Below are positions 20,622 through 42,411 of a DNA stretch of 64,000 bases, in pieces; position 1 is the stretch's first letter; every line of letters starts with the position of its first letter. Below the pieces are notes generated by a model that did not search any database, was not told where the DNA came from, and saw nothing but the letters and a program-made list of their open reading frames with translations. A program made the position numbers and the translations under genes. Source of the stretch: Bacteroidia bacterium (GTDB taxonomy: Bacteria > Bacteroidota > Bacteroidia > J057); contig JAWPMV010000001.1 in the NCBI GenBank assembly GCA_033391075.1, positions 4,650,001-4,714,000 of the forward strand, given 5' to 3'.

Positions 20622-22628
20622 TTATTCTATTTGAATTTTTCTAATTCCAGACTCCCGATCTCCTTCATAATAAAAGAAGTACATACCCGGGCTGAGTTGG
20701 CTGACATCCACCTGCTCACTGCCACTTTTATCGGCCAGGTCCCATTCTTTTTTGTAAGTCACTTCTCCCAAAAGATTAAGGATACTGATACTGGAAAGCC
20801 GCACATCACCAGACCAGCTTAGATTCAATTGATCCTGTACTGGGTTAGGAAATAGCTTTATTTGAATGCCAGGAAGGGCTTCAATTTCGATTTCGACGCT
20901 TTTGCTGTATTCGAAAGCACCATCCAAATCTACCTGCTTAAGTCTATAGACTAATTTTCCCCTAACAGAAAAAGGGAGATCAGTATCCTGAAATTGGTAG
21001 AAATTCACCTCACTACTTGTTCCTGCAGCTTCTAGCTGGCCGATTTTCGTAAAGATATCTCCCCCATTCATTGACCTTTCTACCTCAAAATGGCTGGCAT
21101 TCAATTCTGAAGCAGTCGCCCAATCCAATTCTACTCCCTTATCTCCCTCTCGGGCTGTAAAGTCTAACCATTCTACGGGGAAACTACTTCCATTACCATG
21201 TACTGTGATAATCACACTGGCTTTGGCCGAACCATCCACATCACTCATATTATAAACGAAGAAGTCAGGACCTACATAATCGGTATTGGGGATGTAGTCA
21301 TAATCTCCATTGGAATAGAATACTACATTGCCATGCGTTGGAGGCGTATCCAGGCTATAATTGATAACATCTCCATCCGGTTCAAAATCATTAACAATCA
21401 CGGTTTGCCCGAAGCGACCGGTATTTCTGGGCATGGTGATGGCATCGTCCATAGGAATAGGAGGATTGCCTGTATTGGGGCTGGATTTCACCCTGATGGT
21501 AACCAATCCAATATCGCAAAGAGAAGGGCTGGCATCATCACATACTTGATAAGAAAAAAGATCATAGCCAGTAAATCCGGCATTAGGCGTATAGGTGATA
21601 TTTCCATTTGCCTCATACACTACGCTTCCATAAGAAGGAGCACTATGAGCAGTTGGAGACAGTAAGGCATCTCCATCCTGATCTATATCATTGAAACGAA
21701 CATCGAGTTCTATGCTGCTTCCTTCCGGAATACAGACAGCATCCAGATTGGCCACTGGAGGATTATTGGTCGGTTGGGTATCGATCACCTCTATATAAAC
21801 CGTTGCCTGCACACATCTGGCCGGACAATAGGTATCATCACATATTTGATAGGTAAATTCATCTTCCCCGCTGAAGCCCGGATTGGGTACATAAACCATA
21901 CTTCCATCCGGATTCAAGGCCAGGCTGCCATTGAAGGGACCACCCAGAACATTCAGATCGTAGTTTTGACCCGTTTGCAGGTGATCATTGTTGAAAATGT
22001 TCCCCATGACCGGCTGATCTGTCAGGGTATTGAGGAAATCATCTCTTGCCTGGATGAGAAAAAAGATGAAACACTTCCGGACTCGCATATAAACACCTGC
22101 CTGATCCAAATCCGCACATACACCAGTACTGTTTATAAGACTGATCAGATCATTGAGATCGTCTTGTCCCGGACTAAAAGAGGATAGGTCTAAATAGTCC
22201 GGGCTGGAAGGATCATCCTCATACACTAAATGATGCATGCGATAGACCCCTGCCTGGCTGACACTGAAAATCGGTGAGGAAGAAGAATCGATATAGGCGA
22301 GTCCACTTCCTTTGGTCAGAATATACAAGCTCTTATAGCCCGCTGGAATGACAGCATTTCCATTGGAGCTGGCACTTATTTCGACCTGCCCGGCAATCAG
22401 GCAGAATTCTCCATTGGCGCAATCAGGGCTCATAGACCCCGCATCTGCTGTACAACTCCTCAAATTTTCCAAAGGTTCAGCAGGAAGACTTAGGGAGAAA
22501 GTCAAGAAGAAAAGTAGAAAGTAAAATGGCTTTACAGAACTTTGTGCAATAGTAGGTATTCGTGCAATTTCACAGATCCTGTAAGCGGGAAAAGTAGGTA
22601 GTTTTTCCTTGGTGGTTGTAGTTCCCAT
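20622..22628 (-). CDS. Secreted protein with Ig/cadherin-like repeats and type A T9SS sorting tail
   Basis: A hydrophobic signal segment lies at about residues 34-50 (FYFLLFFLTFSLSLPA), after an unusually long polar N-terminus, so the real start could be internal. Residues about 200-475 hold three tandem beta-sandwich repeats of about 90 residues. They share the pattern NPPVANLDAV...D.DGD...YG.V....G..TYTPN.GF.G.D.F.Y..CD (the Big_9/VCBS-like type). A fibronectin-like segment follows (FPVEWLDFTA...WATASELNASHFEVERS, about 490-585). The C-terminal 75 residues (LFPNPVQDQLNLSW...GMYFFYYEG) form a type A T9SS sorting domain. The protein is probably exported by type IX secretion and attached to the surface or released. 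Function is likely adhesion or display. Confidence 0.85.
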   Translation of the reverse strand: MGTTTTKEKLPTFPAYRICEIARIPTIAQSSVKPFYFLLFFLTFSLSLPAEPLENLRSCTADAGSMSPDCANGEFCLIAGQVEISASSNGNAVIPAGYKSLYILTKGSGLAYIDSSSSPIFSVSQAGVYRMHHLVYEDDPSSPDYLDLSSFSPGQDDLNDLISLINSTGVCADLDQAGVYMRVRKCFIFFLIQARDDFLNTLTDQPVMGNIFNNDHLQTGQNYDLNVLGGPFNGSLALNPDGSMVYVPNPGFSGEDEFTYQICDDTYCPARCVQATVYIEVIDTQPTNNPPVANLDAVCIPEGSSIELDVRFNDIDQDGDALLSPTAHSAPSYGSVVYEANGNITYTPNAGFTGYDLFSYQVCDDASPSLCDIGLVTIRVKSSPNTGNPPIPMDDAITMPRNTGRFGQTVIVNDFEPDGDVINYSLDTPPTHGNVVFYSNGDYDYIPNTDYVGPDFFVYNMSDVDGSAKASVIITVHGNGSSFPVEWLDFTAREGDKGVELDWATASELNASHFEVERSMNGGDIFTKIGQLEAAGTSSEVNFYQFQDTDLPFSVRGKLVYRLKQVDLDGAFEYSKSVEIEIEALPGIQIKLFPNPVQDQLNLSWSGDVRLSSISILNLLGEVTYKKEWDLADKSGSEQVDVSQLSPGMYFFYYEGDRESGIRKIQIE

Positions 22629-22960
22629 TGCTTGATACTTAGGTTAAACAGTAAAGCGACATAATTTCTAACATCACCTAAAACGATGGAATAAGGAATT
22701 TATTTCCTTTTAGTTCGTCTTAGGAAATGAGTAAATGGGTCGCTAAGTGTCTGTGTATCAATATCCAACAGGGGAACACACAAGTTAAAACAAAAAACTC
22801 GTTGTCACCGATTAGAAATTCTCCTTTAAAATCAGTCTATTTTTTCAAAAATACAACATCTGGAAGTTCTTAAAGCTGTATTTGCTACAATCCTCCCTAA
22901 AAAAAATGTCCTCTATGCCTGAAAGACAAAGAGGACAAATATCGTTAAGAACTTATTTTG
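22629..22960. other. Intergenic region before the T9SS gene
   Basis: This 332-bp gap contains the terminator at 22907-22937 and upstream DNA of the T9SS gene. I found no exact TAnnTTTG box and no credible small gene. Confidence 0.5.
22907..22937 (-). terminator. Terminator after the DUF4407 gene
   Basis: TGTCCTCT (22907-22914) pairs with AGAGGACA (22930-22937), with a 15-nt loop. On the - strand a run of seven Ts follows. It lies 24 bp past the DUF4407 stop. Confidence 0.75.
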
Positions 22961-24337
22961 CTACTTGGAAATGGCTTCTTCTTTCTTCGAATGGCCATTT
23001 ATAGGTGCAGGTTTACTACTTGGAGTCTCTTCTTCAACGCTGCTATTGTTTCTTGCCTGCAACTGCATACTTGCATTGAGGTCGTAATTCATATCAGAGA
23101 TATGACGGAGAGCTTCTACTTTCTTATGATGCTCAATGCGACTCAATAAGTAGTCATACGGCCCTCTCCTTGTAATCAATTTCACGAATACAGGAGAAGT
23201 TTCCAGCAGGATAAACAAGAGTACAATTAGGTTACTCATCCACCAGATCGAAGAATCATCGTCTTTCATTTTCTCCAACACCTGAATTCTGGCAGGAAAT
23301 CCTTTGCCGTATTTCTGTGCTTTATCCAATGCTCCAGGCAATTCTTTTTCTCTCTGCTCCTCTTTCGAAGCTATCTGATTAGCGATGACCGTACGTTGTC
23401 TCTGTAGCATACCGATTTCTTCAGACACACTTTCGGCAAATGCCTCACGTACATCTTTTCTTTTGGCCTCCAGTTCGGTGGCATTTTTCTTGGCATCACT
23501 CAGCCGCTTTTTCAAATCTTTATTGATATTATAAAGGCGATTGCTTTGCTCCAGCCATTTACGAGGGAAATCCCATCTTACAAATTTCTTTTCGCCATTG
23601 GCATCCGTCTCATATACTTTAGTAGCATATTTATTCCACAGCCAGGTACGTCGCTTTTCATTGGCTTCCATACGAGGGCCATGGATGCGGTACAGACTAT
23701 CATAGGTAGTCTGGGCTTTGTAGTATTCATTGCTGACTTCTCCAAAATCAAAGGAGGTAGGTTTCCCTTCTTTGAGTTTTTTGTAGCCTTGCCTGATACT
23801 ATCGACTGCATGCAATTCTTTATACAGAGAATCCAGCCCCAGTTTCTGATCCAGTTTACCTTCTGCTTCGCGTTCGAGGTCCGCAGTATAGGCAAAGAGT
23901 TCTGAATTGATCTGGTTGTTGAACAGCTCCACCTCAATAGGTTTTGTGATCACAACGGAAATCAATACTGCCAGGATCATACGAGGCAAGGCCAATCCAA
24001 TCTCAAACCAGGGTCTTCCTTCTTTTCTGATACTGGAAACAATGTATCTGTCCAGATTAAAGATCAATGCCCCCCACAAGAGGCCAAAGAAGAAGGATAC
24101 CACTGCATTTTCAACCAGGGTATAAATCGCAAAGGATCCGGAGATAACTGCCATACAAGCAGTCAGGAAGATCGTAGCACCGATCCCCACATATTTTGTG
24201 TGTTCGGAGGGAGTAACTTCAAGGATTCGAACATAAGCTCCAGCACATGCAAAGAAAAATCGCTTAACTTTTCCGGGCACCTGCCTCTCATTTATAATCC
24301 TGTCGTCATCCGCATAATAAGTAGAAAAATCGCTCAT
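22961..24337 (-). CDS. DUF4407 membrane protein with long coiled coil
   Basis: DUF4407 proteins have four TM helices and a long periplasmic or cytoplasmic coiled coil; their role is unknown. From ATG 24337 (MSDFSTYYADDDR) the helices are at about residues 51-75 (YVGIGATIFLTACMAVISG), 78-98, 116-136 and 362-382. About 225 charged residues lie between helices 3 and 4 (ELFNNQINSELFAYTADLE onward), strongly helical. An ATG 36 bp upstream would overlap the upstream gene by 32 bp; the chosen start lies 4 bp after that gene's stop, so translation is probably coupled. The operon partner is the zinc-ribbon/Ig protein. A terminator follows. Confidence 0.85.
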   Translation of the reverse strand: MSDFSTYYADDDRIINERQVPGKVKRFFFACAGAYVRILEVTPSEHTKYVGIGATIFLTACMAVISGSFAIYTLVENAVVSFFFGLLWGALIFNLDRYIVSSIRKEGRPWFEIGLALPRMILAVLISVVITKPIEVELFNNQINSELFAYTADLEREAEGKLDQKLGLDSLYKELHAVDSIRQGYKKLKEGKPTSFDFGEVSNEYYKAQTTYDSLYRIHGPRMEANEKRRTWLWNKYATKVYETDANGEKKFVRWDFPRKWLEQSNRLYNINKDLKKRLSDAKKNATELEAKRKDVREAFAESVSEEIGMLQRQRTVIANQIASKEEQREKELPGALDKAQKYGKGFPARIQVLEKMKDDDSSIWWMSNLIVLLFILLETSPVFVKLITRRGPYDYLLSRIEHHKKVEALRHISDMNYDLNASMQLQARNNSSVEEETPSSKPAPINGHSKKEEAISK

Positions 24338-24341
24338 TTTC

Positions 24342-25964
24342 TCAGGTATTTGACTTTTTGTTACGTTTTCCAAAGAGTTTTTTAAACAAGCCAGAAAGCT
24401 CTTCTCTTAGCGTGGCTTTTTCCAGGGACAGCAAGTCTTCAGTAAGGTCCATTTTCTGGGCCCGTTGAATATGGACATCGCGTTTGCGCTGCTTGATATC
24501 CTTGCGCAATTGCTTCTCCATTTCCTCGAAGTCTTCTAAATGCATAGGTAAATCGTTGTTTCTTAAATCCGGCGTTTCATCGATTTCCTGCCCATTTTTG
24601 ACGAGACCATCGTCCAGGGGAATAGGAAAGCGAGTGATGTTGAAGGTTTTTTGCGATTCACCTGAATGCCCTTTAGCATACAAAGTGTAAGTAGTAAAGG
24701 CAGCTTCAGGCTTCACTTTGACTTCTCCGGTAATATCTACCTCCCCAATATCCTGGTCGATATAGACCTCAAATGCATTTTCTACATCCCAACTAAGGGT
24801 TACAGGTGCTCCTTCTGTTGAAAGCTCAGAATCACCCGCAAAATGCTGGATCTTCGGGGGAGGAAGTTCCAGTTTAATTCGTTTCTCAATCAGTCCGACA
24901 TGATTGATGGCACGTAAAGTATAGGTAGTGGTCCGATCCGGGAACACCTCTACTTTATTGTCCTCAACTTTACCGGGTGATGGATAAACTTCGACAAGTT
25001 CGGTATTGTGTACTTCCCACATGAGGAGGTTCGCTTTACCGAGCCTAATTGTTTGTGTGTCGGCAGTCAGGCTCATGATCTCCGGACGCCGCATGGTCAA
25101 CTCAATGGAAGCTTTAACCTGGCCACTCCTGTTCTTGGCAATCAGGGTACAAGTCCCAGGTTTTGTCAGATAAGCTTCTGTAAATTCTTTGCCCGAAACA
25201 TCTCCGATATCCATATTGATTTCGAGATGCTCGGCATTTAATGCTTTCCAACTCAGGATGGTGGGAAAGCCTACGGTCACCTCTTTCTCGGCGGCCTTAA
25301 ACTGATTGATTTTAGGAGGGGCGAGGGTAACTTTTGTGCTAAGTTGCTTGCTACCCGTCTCATTATAAGCTGTGAGAACATATTCGGTAGTCTCCATGGG
25401 CTCCACATCCAGGACCCCGATATTTTCCACCAATTCATTACCCGGATTGATGATGACCTTCTGGGCATTTTCAACCTCCCAGGTCAGGCGTATGGGATTG
25501 CCAAACTTTATTGCTCTGCGAGATGCCTTGAAGAGGGCTATGGTAGGCAAAACTCCTCCACAGGATCTGCATTGATTATCTTTCTTATGATTTCTTGTAC
25601 CGCATTCCAGACACTCCCACTTTACACTTTTCCTGCGACTGGTATTTTTTGTCCGTTTTGTTTTTTTGGCCCTTCTACGAACAGGTTCATCTTCATTGCG
25701 TAGTTTATCTTCCAGAATGGTACTTTTTGTGGAATTGCCAACATCTTTACCCCGGACGAAAGTCTTTTCTTCCGGTAGTTCAAACGGGATCTTAGTTTCC
25801 GTTGCGGGGTTGGTTTTAGCATTCACAGGTCCAGCCATTGCGCCAGGGTACAAATAATTTTTTTTTGGTAAGACTGGGATATGGGAATATTCATTCATCC
25901 GTATTCCCTTAATACCCCAAATATTCAAATCAATATAATTCTTTCGACTTAGCTCGAAGGCCAT
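24342..25964 (-). CDS. RanBP2-type zinc ribbon, four Ig-like repeats and coiled coil; unknown function
   Basis: There is no signal peptide and no TM, so it is probably cytoplasmic. Residues 80-115 are basic (RRRAKKTKRTKNTSRRK), followed by W-x-C-x2-C-x10-C-x2-C (C118, C121, C132, C135), an exact RanBP2-type zinc-finger spacing. Residues about 140-460 hold four repeats of about 80 residues with the pattern I..F.A....I..G....L.W.V.NA..V.I....G.V...G...V.P..TT.Y.L.A.N..G, an Ig-like beta sandwich. The tail (about 470-540) is charged and coiled-coil-like (MEKQLRKDIKQRKRDV). ATG 25898 is an alternative start. The gene is 4 bp upstream of the DUF4407 start, so the two products probably act together, possibly with the beta repeats binding the membrane partner. 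I do not know the function. Confidence 0.75.
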   Translation of the reverse strand: MAFELSRKNYIDLNIWGIKGIRMNEYSHIPVLPKKNYLYPGAMAGPVNAKTNPATETKIPFELPEEKTFVRGKDVGNSTKSTILEDKLRNEDEPVRRRAKKTKRTKNTSRRKSVKWECLECGTRNHKKDNQCRSCGGVLPTIALFKASRRAIKFGNPIRLTWEVENAQKVIINPGNELVENIGVLDVEPMETTEYVLTAYNETGSKQLSTKVTLAPPKINQFKAAEKEVTVGFPTILSWKALNAEHLEINMDIGDVSGKEFTEAYLTKPGTCTLIAKNRSGQVKASIELTMRRPEIMSLTADTQTIRLGKANLLMWEVHNTELVEVYPSPGKVEDNKVEVFPDRTTTYTLRAINHVGLIEKRIKLELPPPKIQHFAGDSELSTEGAPVTLSWDVENAFEVYIDQDIGEVDITGEVKVKPEAAFTTYTLYAKGHSGESQKTFNITRFPIPLDDGLVKNGQEIDETPDLRNNDLPMHLEDFEEMEKQLRKDIKQRKRDVHIQRAQKMDLTEDLLSLEKATLREELSGLFKKLFGKRNKKSNT

Positions 25965-26089: not shown

Positions 26090-27280
26090 TCAATTTTCAA
26101 AAAGCAGCTCCAAAATACTGGTATCTTCCAGGTCAGGATACTTGCTTTGGAGAATCTCGCTGATACGCTGAATATAGATCTGATCCAGCTCTTCCGCATT
26201 CAAAACCGTGGTTCTGAGTTCAAATTGACGAGATAGTAAAGGGCCGCTTGCCTTTTTTTCGTGTTGCTTAAATGCTCCTCCAGTGAAGAGGGTATTGATG
26301 TATTTTTTGATCTCCGTCCGGGCAATTTTTTCTGACACAGTATCCTGAATAAAATCAAACATTTCATTCATTGACATAACCGGCTGTTTTTGGTAAGAAA
26401 TCCAAAGGGCTTTGGAGATTTTAAACCGATGTTTGGGAGAAGGATTGTACTTGAGTTTTTTGGTAAGAAATTGAGAAGCCTGGTCCTGAGAACAAACTTC
26501 TTTTCGGGGAGGAATGTCTATTTTTCCTTCCAGAAAATATACCTTCGGTAGCGTATCTTCTGTCGTATCTACCTTCTCCACCAGATCATTCAAGAGCGAA
26601 TTCACAAAGGCTTTGAAAGAAGAAAATCCTAAATCTTTTTCAGAGAAAGAAGAGTCTAGTCTCAACAATTGTTGCTTCAGGCGGGCCATCAGAACCGGGC
26701 CTTCATCCGTTCGACTTTTGAGAAAGCGAATGACCAGATCCCTTCCGGCACTCTTGTCAATTTCCTCTACCATATCAGAAGAAGGTGATTCCTCTTCGGG
26801 TTTGCCTATGAGTTCTTCCAGAGATTTGAATTCCCCGCTATTCCTTTTCACCAACTTTCCTACACTATGCTCAAATCCCATTACAATGACCTTCTTCCCT
26901 CTTGCTCTTAAACGCTGAATAAGCGGGATAAAATCAGTATCACCTGATCCGATAATAAAGGTTGAAACCTCTGCATATAATCCCAGATAGTCCATGACAT
27001 CAATAGCCAAACGAACATCTGAACCATTTTTCCCCTGAGAATTAGTCTCTGGTAAATGAACCAGATCAAAGCCTTGCTCCATCAAACGAGTCTGGTATTG
27101 GGAAAACATATCCTTCGACCAGTCCGCATAGGCTTTTTTCAGACATATCACTCCCTTACTGGCAGCAAAGTCCAGTATAGGTTCTATCAACAAGGGCTTG
27201 CGTTTTGACGGATAGACTGTATCTGCCGAAATCGCAAGATTTTCAAAGTCTAAATAGACAGCTATGGATGATCCTTCCAT
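26090..27280 (-). CDS. NYN (LabA/DUF88-type) nuclease-like protein with OST-HTH/LOTUS domain
   Basis: The N-terminal NYN domain (about 1-155) has the acidic residues of PIN-like RNases: D11 in VYLDFENLA, D88 and D94 in NGSDVRLAIDVMDYL, and D114/D116 in IGSGDTDFIPLIQRLRARGKKV. A LOTUS/OST-HTH-like segment follows (about 180-255, GPVLMARLKQQLLRLDSSFSEKDLGFSSFKAFV), and a second helical segment at about 270-380. NYN-LOTUS proteins in bacteria are thought to bind and perhaps cleave RNA (known eukaryotic relatives include MARF1). All catalytic acids are kept. The gene ends 125 bp upstream of the zinc-ribbon gene on the same strand; whether they share a transcript is unclear. Confidence 0.88.
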   Translation of the reverse strand: MEGSSIAVYLDFENLAISADTVYPSKRKPLLIEPILDFAASKGVICLKKAYADWSKDMFSQYQTRLMEQGFDLVHLPETNSQGKNGSDVRLAIDVMDYLGLYAEVSTFIIGSGDTDFIPLIQRLRARGKKVIVMGFEHSVGKLVKRNSGEFKSLEELIGKPEEESPSSDMVEEIDKSAGRDLVIRFLKSRTDEGPVLMARLKQQLLRLDSSFSEKDLGFSSFKAFVNSLLNDLVEKVDTTEDTLPKVYFLEGKIDIPPRKEVCSQDQASQFLTKKLKYNPSPKHRFKISKALWISYQKQPVMSMNEMFDFIQDTVSEKIARTEIKKYINTLFTGGAFKQHEKKASGPLLSRQFELRTTVLNAEELDQIYIQRISEILQSKYPDLEDTSILELLFEN

Positions 27281-28247: not shown

Positions 28248-29351
28248 CTAATTCAAATCTTCCGCTTTGAGTTCAACATGCGAATTATCGCAGAAGGGTC
28301 CTTTTTTCGTAGCCTTACAATTACAAAGTTTTATGGCACCATCTCTTTTAGCCGTAAACAAGAGAGGCTTATACTTGCTTCCGTGATGAGTTCCATCGCA
28401 GAAAGGTTGATTCTTGCTCTTCCCGCACTGACACCAGAGATAGTTTTTCCCTTTCTCCAACTTGACCATAGCGGGTTCCAGGCTTTTGGTACTCTCTTTT
28501 GTATAGCCTTTGGACAGTTCACTTTTTGGATCGCTGGATTTTACCAGCGGATAGAAATAAGCCGCAGCCCAGGATTCCTTAGGATCATTCATCAAACCTA
28601 GTTCAGAGGGGAATTGCTGGGTAAAAGTCGCTGTTCCAAACATTTGGTCCCAGAGGGAAAACATATTGCCATAGTTGCCATTAGGATCACTTACTCCATC
28701 CACCATAGATTTTCCATGATGGGCATGGTGAAAGGCAGGTGTAATGATGATGCGTTGGAGAAAATTGACGACTGGACGAAAGACTTTGCTTTTATACAAA
28801 GGCTCATCCCAATGGACAGTACTGTGTGAACCAATGATCACCAATTGTTTTAGGATCAATCCCAGGGCAACAGCTTTAGCTCCCCCCATAAAAACAACAA
28901 AAGATAGCCACCAGATATTGGGCATGAGGATGTAATAGAGAGCAGCATTTCGGTAGGAAATGAAAAAACCCATTTCTTCTGCCTGATGATGGGGTCGGTG
29001 TAATTTCCATAACCACTCATATTCATGAGCCGAACGATGATACCAGTATTGGAGCACATCATCTATCAGAAGATAGAAGGGTAATATTAACCACATACTG
29101 TATTCTGCCAAAATTCCGGCTGCCCCAGGAACGATCAGGTTAGCAAGGAAAGGAATTCCTATGACAACCAGCAAGGGTTTGATAACCAGGGCAAGCATCA
29201 GCCAGCCTCCAGCCTCCTGTATCCAGTCAGAGGCCGTTCTTTGGGTTCTGTGAAGATAACCAGAGATGATTTCCAGCATACCAAAAAAAACGAGTATGCC
29301 GACGACCATGTAAACATCAAAATTTTCGATTCCGAATAGCGCTTTGTCCAT
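28248..29351 (-). CDS. Sterol desaturase-family hydroxylase fused to two CDGSH iron-sulfur motifs
   Basis: The membrane part (about 1-250) has several TM helices and the di-iron histidine boxes of the fatty acid hydroxylase superfamily: H105-x3-H109 (WYHRSAHE), H118-x2-H121-H122, and H208-H209 with H211-H212 (FHHAHH). The last 75 residues hold two CDGSH-type [2Fe-2S] motifs. The first is C307-x-C309-x8-C318-x3-H322 and the second C343-x-C345-x8-C354-x3-H358, both with the full three-Cys-one-His ligand set. A CDGSH pair on one chain could pass electrons to the di-iron centre; this is inference. A methyltransferase follows and a Crp/Fnr gene precedes it on the same strand. Confidence 0.85.
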   Translation of the reverse strand: MDKALFGIENFDVYMVVGILVFFGMLEIISGYLHRTQRTASDWIQEAGGWLMLALVIKPLLVVIGIPFLANLIVPGAAGILAEYSMWLILPFYLLIDDVLQYWYHRSAHEYEWLWKLHRPHHQAEEMGFFISYRNAALYYILMPNIWWLSFVVFMGGAKAVALGLILKQLVIIGSHSTVHWDEPLYKSKVFRPVVNFLQRIIITPAFHHAHHGKSMVDGVSDPNGNYGNMFSLWDQMFGTATFTQQFPSELGLMNDPKESWAAAYFYPLVKSSDPKSELSKGYTKESTKSLEPAMVKLEKGKNYLWCQCGKSKNQPFCDGTHHGSKYKPLLFTAKRDGAIKLCNCKATKKGPFCDNSHVELKAEDLN

Positions 29352-40263: not shown

Positions 40264-42411
40264 TTATAGCAAACTATTAAGCTTACGTACTATCCACTCT
40301 ATTGAAAGCAGTGAAAGTAGAATCCCCAATATCCAGGGGAAATTGTGGAAAGGGGTTCGGCTTCTTCGGGTATCCAATTGAGGTTTCATACCCGGCAGTG
40401 ATTTGAGTTTAGCAGAAAGCTGAGCTAAATCTCTGGCAAACAGGAAGTCTCCTTCCGTACGCAGGGATATCTGCTCCATCAAGTCCTTATCAGCCTGTAA
40501 TTGAAAGTGCTCAACATTTGACCTCCCCACAGAGAACTGCCCCCGATCTGTACCAATCATGGCATTATCTTTTCGACCTTCTGCTGTATAGGAATAGGTG
40601 CCTTCCTCCAATTTGGGAATCTCGATAAAGTATTGAGCGTCCTGGGTTTCATTGAGGAAATAATCCGTAGAGCTCCCATCCGGAGATTTGATGCTTAATT
40701 TGATAGCTACTTTGGGTAAAGGATTATAGCTATCGTCATATGCCTGTCCACTAAACAGAATGGGATCAGAACCGGTGAATATTCTTTTGGAAGGATTGAC
40801 CTTGAATTTCCGTTTGTCATCTGATACAATCAGCCATTTGATGTTGTTGAACAACCAGGCATCAAATTGCTCAAAGTCTCCGGATTCGGTATAGCTGTGA
40901 GCACGCATACGCCAGAAATTCTCACCAAGAAATACCATATTTTTTCTACCCAGATGATTTTGCAAGGCATATACCGGATAATCCAATTGAACATTCTTGA
41001 TCTTGGCGGTAGCGTATACCTCAGCTGTTTTCTTGGCTTCCCAGGCAGAATTATTTCGGTATACCGGAGGCACACTATTGGCCCATTGTAACCAATTGTC
41101 TGCAAAGGTAAAGGTAGAGTGGTTGCTATATTTCTTTTTAAAATCCGGGATAACCTCCTCTGCGCGTGGGCTATAGCTTTTGGGGCTTATTGCCATATAT
41201 TCAAAGAGAGGCTGCATACTTCTGAGGTCAGTAAAAATCCCTGAGAAATACATAACGGGCTTGTTTTGCTCTTTGATCTGTTCGCTTACTTTGGCCACCA
41301 TAGCTTTATCTGCAGAGCTTCCCGGCCAATTGTGTAAAATAAAGAGGTCGTAGTCCTCGAGGTTTACGGTATTGGGATTCAGGTAGTAGGAGCCGGATTG
41401 TTTTAGAATAAATTCATCCAGCTCATAGCTTTTCTCCCGCTTCAAAGCAATTCGCAAAGCGCCCAAATCCGGATGAGGAGAACCTGCGAAGAGGGCAATC
41501 TTTACTCGTGTCTCCAGAACATTGACAAAGAAATTGCGGCTATTGTTTCTATAGCTAATTTCATTTTCCAGCCGGCTCACCTCAATTCGAAATTGTTGTA
41601 ATCCCACCTCTTCCGGTTTCACCAGGAAAGTGAGTTCCCCCTGATTTTTCGCACTCCCAAGATTTAACGTCTGGGTTTCCAGTACTTTGTCCCGGTTTCT
41701 CAATCGGACCTGTAAGGGAGCACGGTCAAATCCATTACTCTGGATTTTTACCCGTATAGGCATATCATTGTTGAGGTAGGCTATTTCATTGAAAAGCACC
41801 TCTTTTATGATGATATCCTTTTGGTCGGAGGTATCTCCGAGCAAGACCGTATAAATAGGGACTTTATTTCCTTCCAGGCCATACAGCGGGTTGATTCCTG
41901 AAGTCAGAATCCCATCAGAAGCCAGAACCACTGCTTGTAGATTCTGGTTTTGATATAATTTCTTCAGGTCTTTTAAGGCCTGCGAAATATTGGTTCCGGT
42001 TTTTGAGAAGTTCAGGGAATCGAGCTCCACTTTACTTTCCAGAGAGGTTCCAAAACCAAACATTTGGAAATCAAAGTTATCTCCACTGAACTGTCCCTGC
42101 AAATCTTTTACAAGCGCAGGATATTCATTTTTGACAAATGCAGAATCTTTCTGAACCAGTAAGCTTTCTGAATTGTCCTGGAGAAAAGCGATGACAGGCG
42201 GATATTCCACCGAACTTCTCATAACCATCATGGGCTTTAGCAGGAGAATAGCTATCAGGCATAAGGCCACAAATCGAAATACTCCTAAAAATATTCTCCA
42301 TCTCCGGGAAAGGATTTCCGACGTTCCCCTATACATAAAATAGGACAGACCAGCTGCCAATGCTATGATCAGGAGAATAAAGAGAGGAGAGTTACTAAAG
42401 CTTATATCCAT
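40264..42411 (-). CDS. VWA-like membrane protein, BatA/YegL-type envelope
   Basis: Two N-terminal TM helices (about 10-28 and 40-60), a long periplasmic part and a C-terminal TM helix (about 692-708) make it a membrane-anchored protein. The start MDISFSNSPLFILLIIALA is hydrophobic. Residues about 70-200 have a VWA-like pattern (VIAFLQDNSESLLV, then TNISQALKDLKKLYQNQNLQAVVLASDGILTSG), in which the first metal site reads D-N-S-E-S. A large beta region (about 225-420) and a glutamine-amidotransferase-like Rossmann segment (about 310-400, VKIALFAGSPHPDLGAL) follow. Such proteins are widespread in Bacteroidota, with unknown role. The gene begins 22 bp after fabG, suggesting one operon. Confidence 0.75.
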   Translation of the reverse strand: MDISFSNSPLFILLIIALAAGLSYFMYRGTSEILSRRWRIFLGVFRFVALCLIAILLLKPMMVMRSSVEYPPVIAFLQDNSESLLVQKDSAFVKNEYPALVKDLQGQFSGDNFDFQMFGFGTSLESKVELDSLNFSKTGTNISQALKDLKKLYQNQNLQAVVLASDGILTSGINPLYGLEGNKVPIYTVLLGDTSDQKDIIIKEVLFNEIAYLNNDMPIRVKIQSNGFDRAPLQVRLRNRDKVLETQTLNLGSAKNQGELTFLVKPEEVGLQQFRIEVSRLENEISYRNNSRNFFVNVLETRVKIALFAGSPHPDLGALRIALKREKSYELDEFILKQSGSYYLNPNTVNLEDYDLFILHNWPGSSADKAMVAKVSEQIKEQNKPVMYFSGIFTDLRSMQPLFEYMAISPKSYSPRAEEVIPDFKKKYSNHSTFTFADNWLQWANSVPPVYRNNSAWEAKKTAEVYATAKIKNVQLDYPVYALQNHLGRKNMVFLGENFWRMRAHSYTESGDFEQFDAWLFNNIKWLIVSDDKRKFKVNPSKRIFTGSDPILFSGQAYDDSYNPLPKVAIKLSIKSPDGSSTDYFLNETQDAQYFIEIPKLEEGTYSYTAEGRKDNAMIGTDRGQFSVGRSNVEHFQLQADKDLMEQISLRTEGDFLFARDLAQLSAKLKSLPGMKPQLDTRRSRTPFHNFPWILGILLSLLSIEWIVRKLNSLL

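Follow-up and report, generated by a model that had tools for sequence, protein, structure and literature searches.

The stretch analyzed here, referred to as the window, comprises 64,000 nucleotides of the Bacteroidia bacterium assembly GCA_033391075.1 (contig JAWPMV010000001.1, positions 4,650,001 to 4,714,000, forward strand). Two open reading frames (ORFs) on its minus strand, separated by 4 bp, encode a 540-residue protein with a zinc ribbon and four immunoglobulin-like (Ig) domains and a 458-residue membrane protein of the DUF4407 family (Table 1). The Ig gene and the DUF4407 gene are a conserved unit, and elsewhere in Bacteroidota the same Ig tail and DUF4407 unit carries kinase-like or PLD-like heads. 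This exchange of heads is absent from an earlier, sequence-only reading of this DNA. In the following, loci are labelled with L and genomes with G, and the window's own genome is G000.

In the AlphaFold model of the 540-residue protein, the N-terminus and the linker behind the four Ig domains have low confidence; the ribbon lies between the N-terminus and the Ig domains, and two helices form the C-terminus. The Ig repeats span residues 139-447 and are modelled as beta-sandwiches, with a predicted local distance difference test (pLDDT) score mostly above 90 over residues 141-446, and tandem Ig arrays in the PDB are matched with a best E-value of 3.4e-12. No hydrophobic N-terminus was found in the first 60 residues, where the maximal 15-residue hydropathy is 0.12, compared with 2.47 and 2.73 in two Ig proteins that bear signal peptides, and a Pfam search gave no kinase match. 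Alignment, AlphaFold and hydropathy thereby bear out what the sequence-only reading had described, namely a zinc finger (C118-x2-C121-x10-C132-x2-C135) and four Ig-like repeats in a protein without a signal peptide. Seven relatives are 34-46% identical to the window protein.

The ribbon itself reads W116-x-C118-x2-C121-x3-N125-x6-C132-x2-C135. Its four cysteines are kept in seven of eight aligned family members, and WxCx2Cx3Nx6Cx2C is fitted exactly by five of the seven ribbons (the window's and four of the six others). The pattern WxCx(2-4)Cx3Nx6Cx2C is that of RanBP2-type fingers. The Pfam RanBP2 cut-off (PF00641, 27 bits) is not reached by the window protein, which scores 14.7 bits as a whole and 21.2 bits with the ribbon segment, and across the seven ribbons the Pfam double-zinc-ribbon model (DZR) matches six, as against three for RanBP2. 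When a profile of the seven ribbons was compared with the PDB, a chain named RanBP2-type zinc finger was matched at E 5.1e-12 and the RanBP2-type fingers of Nup153 at E 1.2e-4, with eL40 and GATA fingers matched more weakly than Nup153. The RanBP2-type name given in the earlier reading is fair. The window protein also differs from Nup153 and similar proteins in having a single finger, carried by an array of Ig domains in a bacterial protein. RanBP2-type fingers can bind RNA, and the ribbon head probably binds nucleic acid or protein.

The second protein matches the DUF4407 family (PF14362) with an E-value of 4.6e-63 and 213.7 bits, against a curated cut-off of 31.3 bits, over nearly the whole model, and has the LDRYIV stretch of the family. 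Hydropathy over 50 sequences and the AlphaFold model (pLDDT 89.6, predicted template modelling score 0.64) place four hydrophobic stretches in helices 43-75, 78-102, 109-138 and 362-388, and thus predict four transmembrane helices (TMs), the fourth of them preceded by a long helical insert. This TM3-TM4 region of about 226 residues is modelled as mostly helical and interrupted by a beta hairpin, which agrees with the earlier description of a membrane protein 4 bp downstream with a coiled coil of about 225 residues. The number of lysines and arginines per segment over the 50 sequences is 0.14 in loop 1, 4.28 in loop 2, 2.84 after TM3 and 3.16 after TM4; therefore, both termini are predicted to be cytosolic and the hairpin periplasmic. 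No PDB entry matched DUF4407 at an E-value of 0.001 or better. Seven relatives are 54-67% identical to the window protein; conservation on this scale, in both proteins of the pair, is beyond chance. Of 395 genomes sampled from the phylum, 121 have a DUF4407 match that passes the Pfam cut-off. The window's genome also has a second, distant DUF4407 (116.5 bits) outside the window (L092, 8260-9612, minus strand; G000:C1:1675437-1676552). Its neighbours are a weakly TPR-like gene of 255 amino acids and, further up, a gene of 1,881 amino acids without a Pfam match; no Ig partner was seen beside it.

The pairing of the two genes was followed in the window's family, which accounts for 13 of the 22 genomes of its order. 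Both genes are present in nine family genomes, where they are always adjacent, and both are missing in four (G002, G008, G010 and G011). Eight of the nine carry the pair of the zinc-ribbon lineage (G000, G001, G003, G004, G005, G006, G007 and G009), one member being without the ribbon, and the ninth, G012, has a PLD-headed form only. In G009 the Ig gene is apparently split where two contigs meet, an Ig gene (L043) and a DUF4407 gene (L039) are cut by contig ends, and G002 and G010 gave weak Ig matches only, in frames of approximately 1,860 residues. A DUF4407 alignment scan of named genomes gave 459 relatives, of which the best 80 were chosen for their likeness to the window's protein. The co-occurrence expected from the sequence-only reading stands in one direction, as DUF4407 adjoins the Ig protein in eight of eight family genomes, whereas the converse fails: 71 of these best 80 DUF4407 loci have no visible Ig partner, two of which (L125 and L151) begin at the gene because of a contig end. 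The zinc-ribbon DUF4407s form one clade (100/100) and differ from most of the DUF4407 loci examined in having an Ig partner, which is present in all eight genomes.

A link of the pair to the upstream NYN-LOTUS gene, also suggested earlier, was not supported. The gene adjoins the pair on the same strand in G000, G004 and G006 only, and orthologues (55-61% identity) are present in five relatives. In G003, an assembly of three contigs, it lies on the opposite strand at a distance of about 29 kb from the pair. G005 (90% complete) keeps the pair and has an NYN-LOTUS match of only 7.5e-4. The gene was therefore rejected as an obligate component. In G001 and G007 a contig ends at the position in question, so adjacency is possible there. 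NYN relatives (47-49% identical over the N-terminal part) are also present in G002 and G010, both of which are without the pair.

The part of the Ig protein that recurs outside the family is its end. In 18 aligned Ig tails, the I, F and W positions are invariant and two prolines nearly so, and 16 tails have an FPxP motif after the last Ig domain, L041 and L208 being without it. Comparison of the Anditalea kinase-Ig protein with the window family in HHalign gave a probability of 98.4, with 38% identity over 101 columns, located at Ig domain 4 (Ig4) and FPIP. Scored with separate models of the four window Ig domains, nine of 11 partners match Ig4 best, an advantage owed in part to the FPxP extension that this model includes. 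Among zinc-ribbon DUF4407s, identity is 67-88% in the TMs and 73-80% in the membrane-near cytosolic parts, 38-55% in the hairpin and lowest, at 26-30%, at the two ends. In the Ig partner, identity climbs from 30% in the ribbon to 47% in Ig4 and is 17% in the linker and 45% in the C-terminal helix. This pattern would be expected if the tail docks on the cytosolic face of DUF4407, although it is not proof of docking.

Within the best 80 of the 459 loci, an Ig protein lies directly upstream of DUF4407 in nine. These are L123, from a contig of G001 (L037 and L123 are one contig), and eight loci with kinase matches, from Chitinophagaceae UBA2793, Anditalea andensis, Flavobacterium J49, Bizionia arctica, F. 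segetis, a Crocinitomix metagenome-assembled genome, Algoriphagus antarcticus and F. frigoris. Across 125 loci with 1,554 ORFs, the Ig profile matched 17 ORFs, each of which immediately precedes a DUF4407 gene of the same orientation; nine of these come from loci found with DUF4407 alone and eight from loci fetched for hits to both proteins. Heads were scanned in 10 partners and gave a kinase match in eight (six pass a Pfam cut-off, L181 and L142 are below it), a PLD match in L022 (E 2.1e-22) and a weak PLD match in L041 (E 9.9e-4, below cut-off). Ig proteins with PLD-like heads precede DUF4407 in G012 (L022) and at a second locus of G003 (L041). The PLD-Ig protein of L022 shares with the window protein the last Ig domain, an FPLP motif and the DUF4407 neighbour, and differs from it in its PLD-like head and in having two Ig domains only. 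In L208 (G429), one extra gene lies between the kinase-Ig gene and DUF4407. Because a kinase or nuclease-like domain takes the position of the zinc finger in relatives, the pair looks like an undescribed plug-in signalling module.

The neighbours of the kinase-headed relatives recall TerY-P, which, according to excerpts of PMC11090510, is a triad of a vWA protein, a PP2C and a Ser/Thr kinase whose C-terminus is a zinc ribbon or an OB fold, the OB versions being described as antiphage systems. The vWA and PP2C domains were tested with Pfam in L124, L131, L135 and L181, and the other loci were read by eye. In L124 and L131, vWA, PP2C and kinase are all above cut-off; in L181, vWA and PP2C pass and the kinase does not; L135 gave a vWA match below cut-off and none for PP2C, and also contains a PLD gene and another kinase-like gene. 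The PADLOC model STK_OB is matched by the kinase-headed L137 (1.4e-49), L135 (9.2e-50) and L142 (5.8e-54), and the PLD head of L022 matches the PADLOC model DrmC at 1.8e-9. Downstream genes, scanned at three loci, include type I restriction genes in L124 and L135 and a DUF2779 gene in L184.

A search with an Ig-tail profile, in 395 genomes of the class with at most eight candidates scored per genome, gave matches at E <=1e-6 in 19 genomes, six from the family and 13 others. Twelve of the 13 non-family genomes were followed up, G590 being left out. DUF4407 adjoins the Ig gene in seven of them (G526, G520, G551, G542, G505, G703 and G515), including all five with E <1e-14; in G551 the head lies beyond its contig. 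In G505, G703 and G515 (L256, L262 and L263, respectively), the DUF4407 partner has two Ig domains, with a head that matches PLDc_2 below cut-off in L256 and has no match in L262 and L263. The neighbours of L256 include genes for Pvc16_N, glycosyl-hydrolase-18, DUF4280 and nSTAND1 and so point to a contractile-injection setting; by eye, L262 and L263 are alike.

The descent of the zinc-ribbon group was followed in DUF4407 trees. A quick tree of 68 rows joins eight zinc-ribbon, 13 kinase, one PLD and two partnerless rows, with a Shimodaira-Hasegawa-like approximate likelihood ratio test (SH-aLRT) support of 96. For a careful tree, six long or uncertain rows were dropped (L208, L262, L256, L263, L128 and L138), and the eight zinc-ribbon and five kinase rows are united at 97/95, and these together with L041 at 88/93.

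The features of the pair and its closest surroundings are collected in Table 1. Six window neighbours were scanned with Pfam, and no PP2C, vWA, restriction or other defence gene was found among them; the only gene of a signalling or defence type is NYN-LOTUS, which is matched by the PADLOC NYN model at E 8.3e-7. PADLOC gave no match for either protein of the pair up to E 1, and searches of the window proteins with NCBIfam and PADLOC returned only weak zinc-ribbon, coiled-coil and NYN matches for these genes. One sigma-70-like site lies between NYN-LOTUS and the Ig gene (26069-26042, minus strand), and such sites are no commoner in the window than expected by chance (six observed, 9.6 in shuffles). 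Matches to TTTG-N18-21-TANNTTTG, a Bacteroidota promoter consensus, occur in the window at 42072, 43676, 47083, 50403 and 58925 (five against 1.46 expected), and none occurs at the pair. The next gene downstream of the pair (20622-22628, minus strand) encodes an adhesin-like protein, in which three Big_9/cadherin-like repeats are combined with a type IX secretion tail, and a gene at 28248-29351 (minus strand) encodes a fusion of a fatty-acid hydroxylase with two iron-binding stretches of CDGSH type.

Table 1. Features of the zinc-ribbon/Ig and DUF4407 gene pair and its borders in the window.
Feature	Coordinates	Strand	Basis
Hairpin with T run at the end of the unit, resembling an intrinsic terminator	22899..22937	-	-17.7 kcal/mol, z -5.07
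DUF4407 membrane protein, 458 aa from ATG, four predicted TM helices	22961..24337	-	Pfam, hydropathy, AlphaFold
Long helical hairpin, residues 137-362, beta tip 239-256, predicted periplasmic	23252..23929	-	Positive-inside pattern
Head-Ig-tail protein, 540 aa, presumably cytosolic	24342..25964	-	ORF call, Ig repeats, AlphaFold model, hydropathy
C-terminal helices, residues 477-531, proposed docking tail	24372..24536	-	
Ig-like domain 4 and FPIP motif, residues 369-449, common to kinase-Ig and PLD-Ig proteins	24618..24860	-	
Ig-like domain 3, residues 293-369	24858..25088	-	Repeat analysis, AlphaFold
Ig-like domain 2, residues 216-293	25086..25319	-	Repeat analysis, AlphaFold
Ig-like domain 1, residues 139-216	25317..25550	-	Repeat analysis, AlphaFold
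RanBP2-pattern zinc ribbon (head), residues 116-135	25560..25619	-	Alignment, profile searches; AlphaFold confidence low
NYN-OST-HTH/LOTUS gene, neighbour, not counted in the unit	26090..27280	-	

Elsewhere, the same proposed docking unit is found with kinase-like or PLD-like heads. The window pair is therefore most likely derived from a signalling platform of that type and has no kinase of its own. The full proposal, to which we give an even chance, is that the pair forms a two-protein, membrane-docked adaptor derived from a TerY-P-like signalling platform. DUF4407 would sit in the inner membrane via its four helices, with the long helical hairpin reaching into the periplasm and the N-terminus, the LDRYIVSS loop and the C-terminal PYD helix on the cytosolic side. 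The C-terminal tail and last Ig domain of the partner would dock onto this cytosolic face, giving the membrane-tethered complex that had been proposed from the sequence; the Ig array would then serve as a spacer arm and the zinc ribbon as the outward-facing head, with nucleic acid or protein as its ligand. The hairpin may sense or span the periplasm and pass an envelope signal to the head. Of this proposal, the gene pairing, the domains, the exchange of heads and the common last Ig domain with FPxP are observed, topology and folds are predicted, and docking, the direction of the signal and the ribbon ligand are inferred. After loss of the kinase, the window pair would now be retained among housekeeping genes. 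A broader version, given more tentatively and rather less likely than not, is that the Ig tail and DUF4407 constitute a general transmembrane receptor chassis of Bacteroidota, with a periplasmic hairpin, four TMs, a cytosolic Ig dock and interchangeable heads.

Several observations weigh against descent from a kinase-bearing platform or against parts of the model. In the trees, which took in 42 of the 71 partnerless loci, the stem branch of the zinc-ribbon group is long (1.3 in the quick tree), and two of the dropped rows, L128 and L138, are partnerless and had been placed within the kinase/zinc-ribbon group by the quick tree. The approximately unbiased (AU) test does not reject a grouping of zinc-ribbon with partnerless DUF4407s (p 0.221), and descent of the zinc-ribbon DUF4407s from kinase-linked relatives is therefore given as likely rather than as established. 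L208 and L041, the tails without FPxP, are also the exceptions to the rule that Ig4 scores best, and the eighth family member, L040, has lost all four ribbon cysteines. Five of the 12 non-family genomes (G465, G189, G154, G579 and G303) have an Ig match without DUF4407, and in L212 (G375) DUF4407 lies near a Pfam-matched kinase gene without an Ig match. The L212 DUF4407 protein has 1,016 amino acids and by eye a PP2C-like gene is nearby; L212 is perhaps another membrane form of the triad. After TM4, lysines and arginines (3.16) are fewer than aspartates and glutamates (4.82), and this side of the predicted topology is therefore weakly supported. In addition, no resident vWA-PP2C-kinase triad was found in the window's genome through its three PP2C_2 matches, of which two neighbourhoods were read by eye and C1:2398157 was left out; one has a kinase-like gene, and no vWA was seen in either. 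A resident TerY-P triad acting in trans was accordingly set aside for these two neighbourhoods. As no triad was seen in the regions read, the ribbon form apparently acts by itself, surrounded by genes of housekeeping type.

In a rather unlikely alternative, the two proteins are a housekeeping envelope-structure pair without signalling: DUF4407 would be a general inner-membrane spacer of Bacteroidota, the Ig protein its cytosolic stabiliser and the ribbon a means of stiffening the N-terminus. The wide distribution of DUF4407 in the phylum, the many DUF4407 loci without an Ig partner, the scanned neighbours, none of which except NYN-LOTUS is of a signalling or defence type, the ribbon loss in L040 and the AU result all speak for it. 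A pure stabiliser does not explain why kinase-like and PLD-like heads occur on the same tail, and the four cysteines are kept in seven of eight members while the stretch preceding them is poorly alignable. An anti-phage or conflict role, as a stripped TerY-P-type module whose ribbon would sense invading nucleic acid at the membrane or recruit an effector to it, is improbable. It would fit the three STK_OB matches, the restriction genes at two of the three scanned loci and the DrmC match, as well as the report that TerY-P-like modules with a kinase-OB protein are stand-alone antiphage systems (PMC11090510, excerpts), but the window pair has no effector enzyme, neither of its proteins is matched by PADLOC and no defence gene was found among its six scanned neighbours.

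Also, the NYN-LOTUS nuclease, the zinc-ribbon protein and DUF4407 could form a membrane RNA-processing complex, a very improbable explanation. The capacity of RanBP2-type fingers to bind RNA speaks for it, as does the adjacency in three genomes, possibly five with G001 and G007. The non-adjacent gene in G003, the missing good orthologue in G005 and the related NYN genes in the pairless G002 and G010 speak against it, and so does the sigma-70-like site that separates NYN-LOTUS from the Ig gene, bearing in mind that such sites occur at chance frequency.

The preferred reading, a kinase-less derivative of a TerY-P-like platform, connects the pair to known systems without making it a member. Relatives of the window protein's Ig tail make up the C-terminal end of kinase-like proteins, which in the fully tested loci L124 and L131 are encoded in vWA-PP2C-kinase operons, and zinc ribbons occur on TerY-P kinases too (PMC11090510, excerpts). 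The window pair differs in having no kinase, PP2C or vWA, and the C-terminal Ig domain and FPxP tail with a DUF4407 partner are absent from the excerpted TerY-P description (PMC11090510); the pair may act like a reduced TerY-P triad. In the excerpts of PMC11090510, PMC7159879, PMC10853773 and PMC12839542, neither DUF4407 nor an Ig-tailed TerY-P kinase is named. The literature search, as far as the retrieved portions of the sources extend, gave no study devoted to DUF4407, which occurs in table rows of PMC10719396 and PMC9603813 and also in PMC10551460, and a receptor architecture like that of the Ig-tail and DUF4407 chassis was not met in the literature searched.

If the receptor chassis is real, it would operate in TerY-P-like operons and, in one case or more, next to contractile-injection-type genes (L256), and in the window's family it would have become a chromosomal zinc-finger adaptor. 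Tying a branch of DUF4407 to an Ig dock whose heads can be exchanged provides this branch with a testable role as a membrane platform for kinase, nuclease-like and zinc-finger heads, and, if this role is true, TerY-P-like signalling would gain a membrane-bound form.

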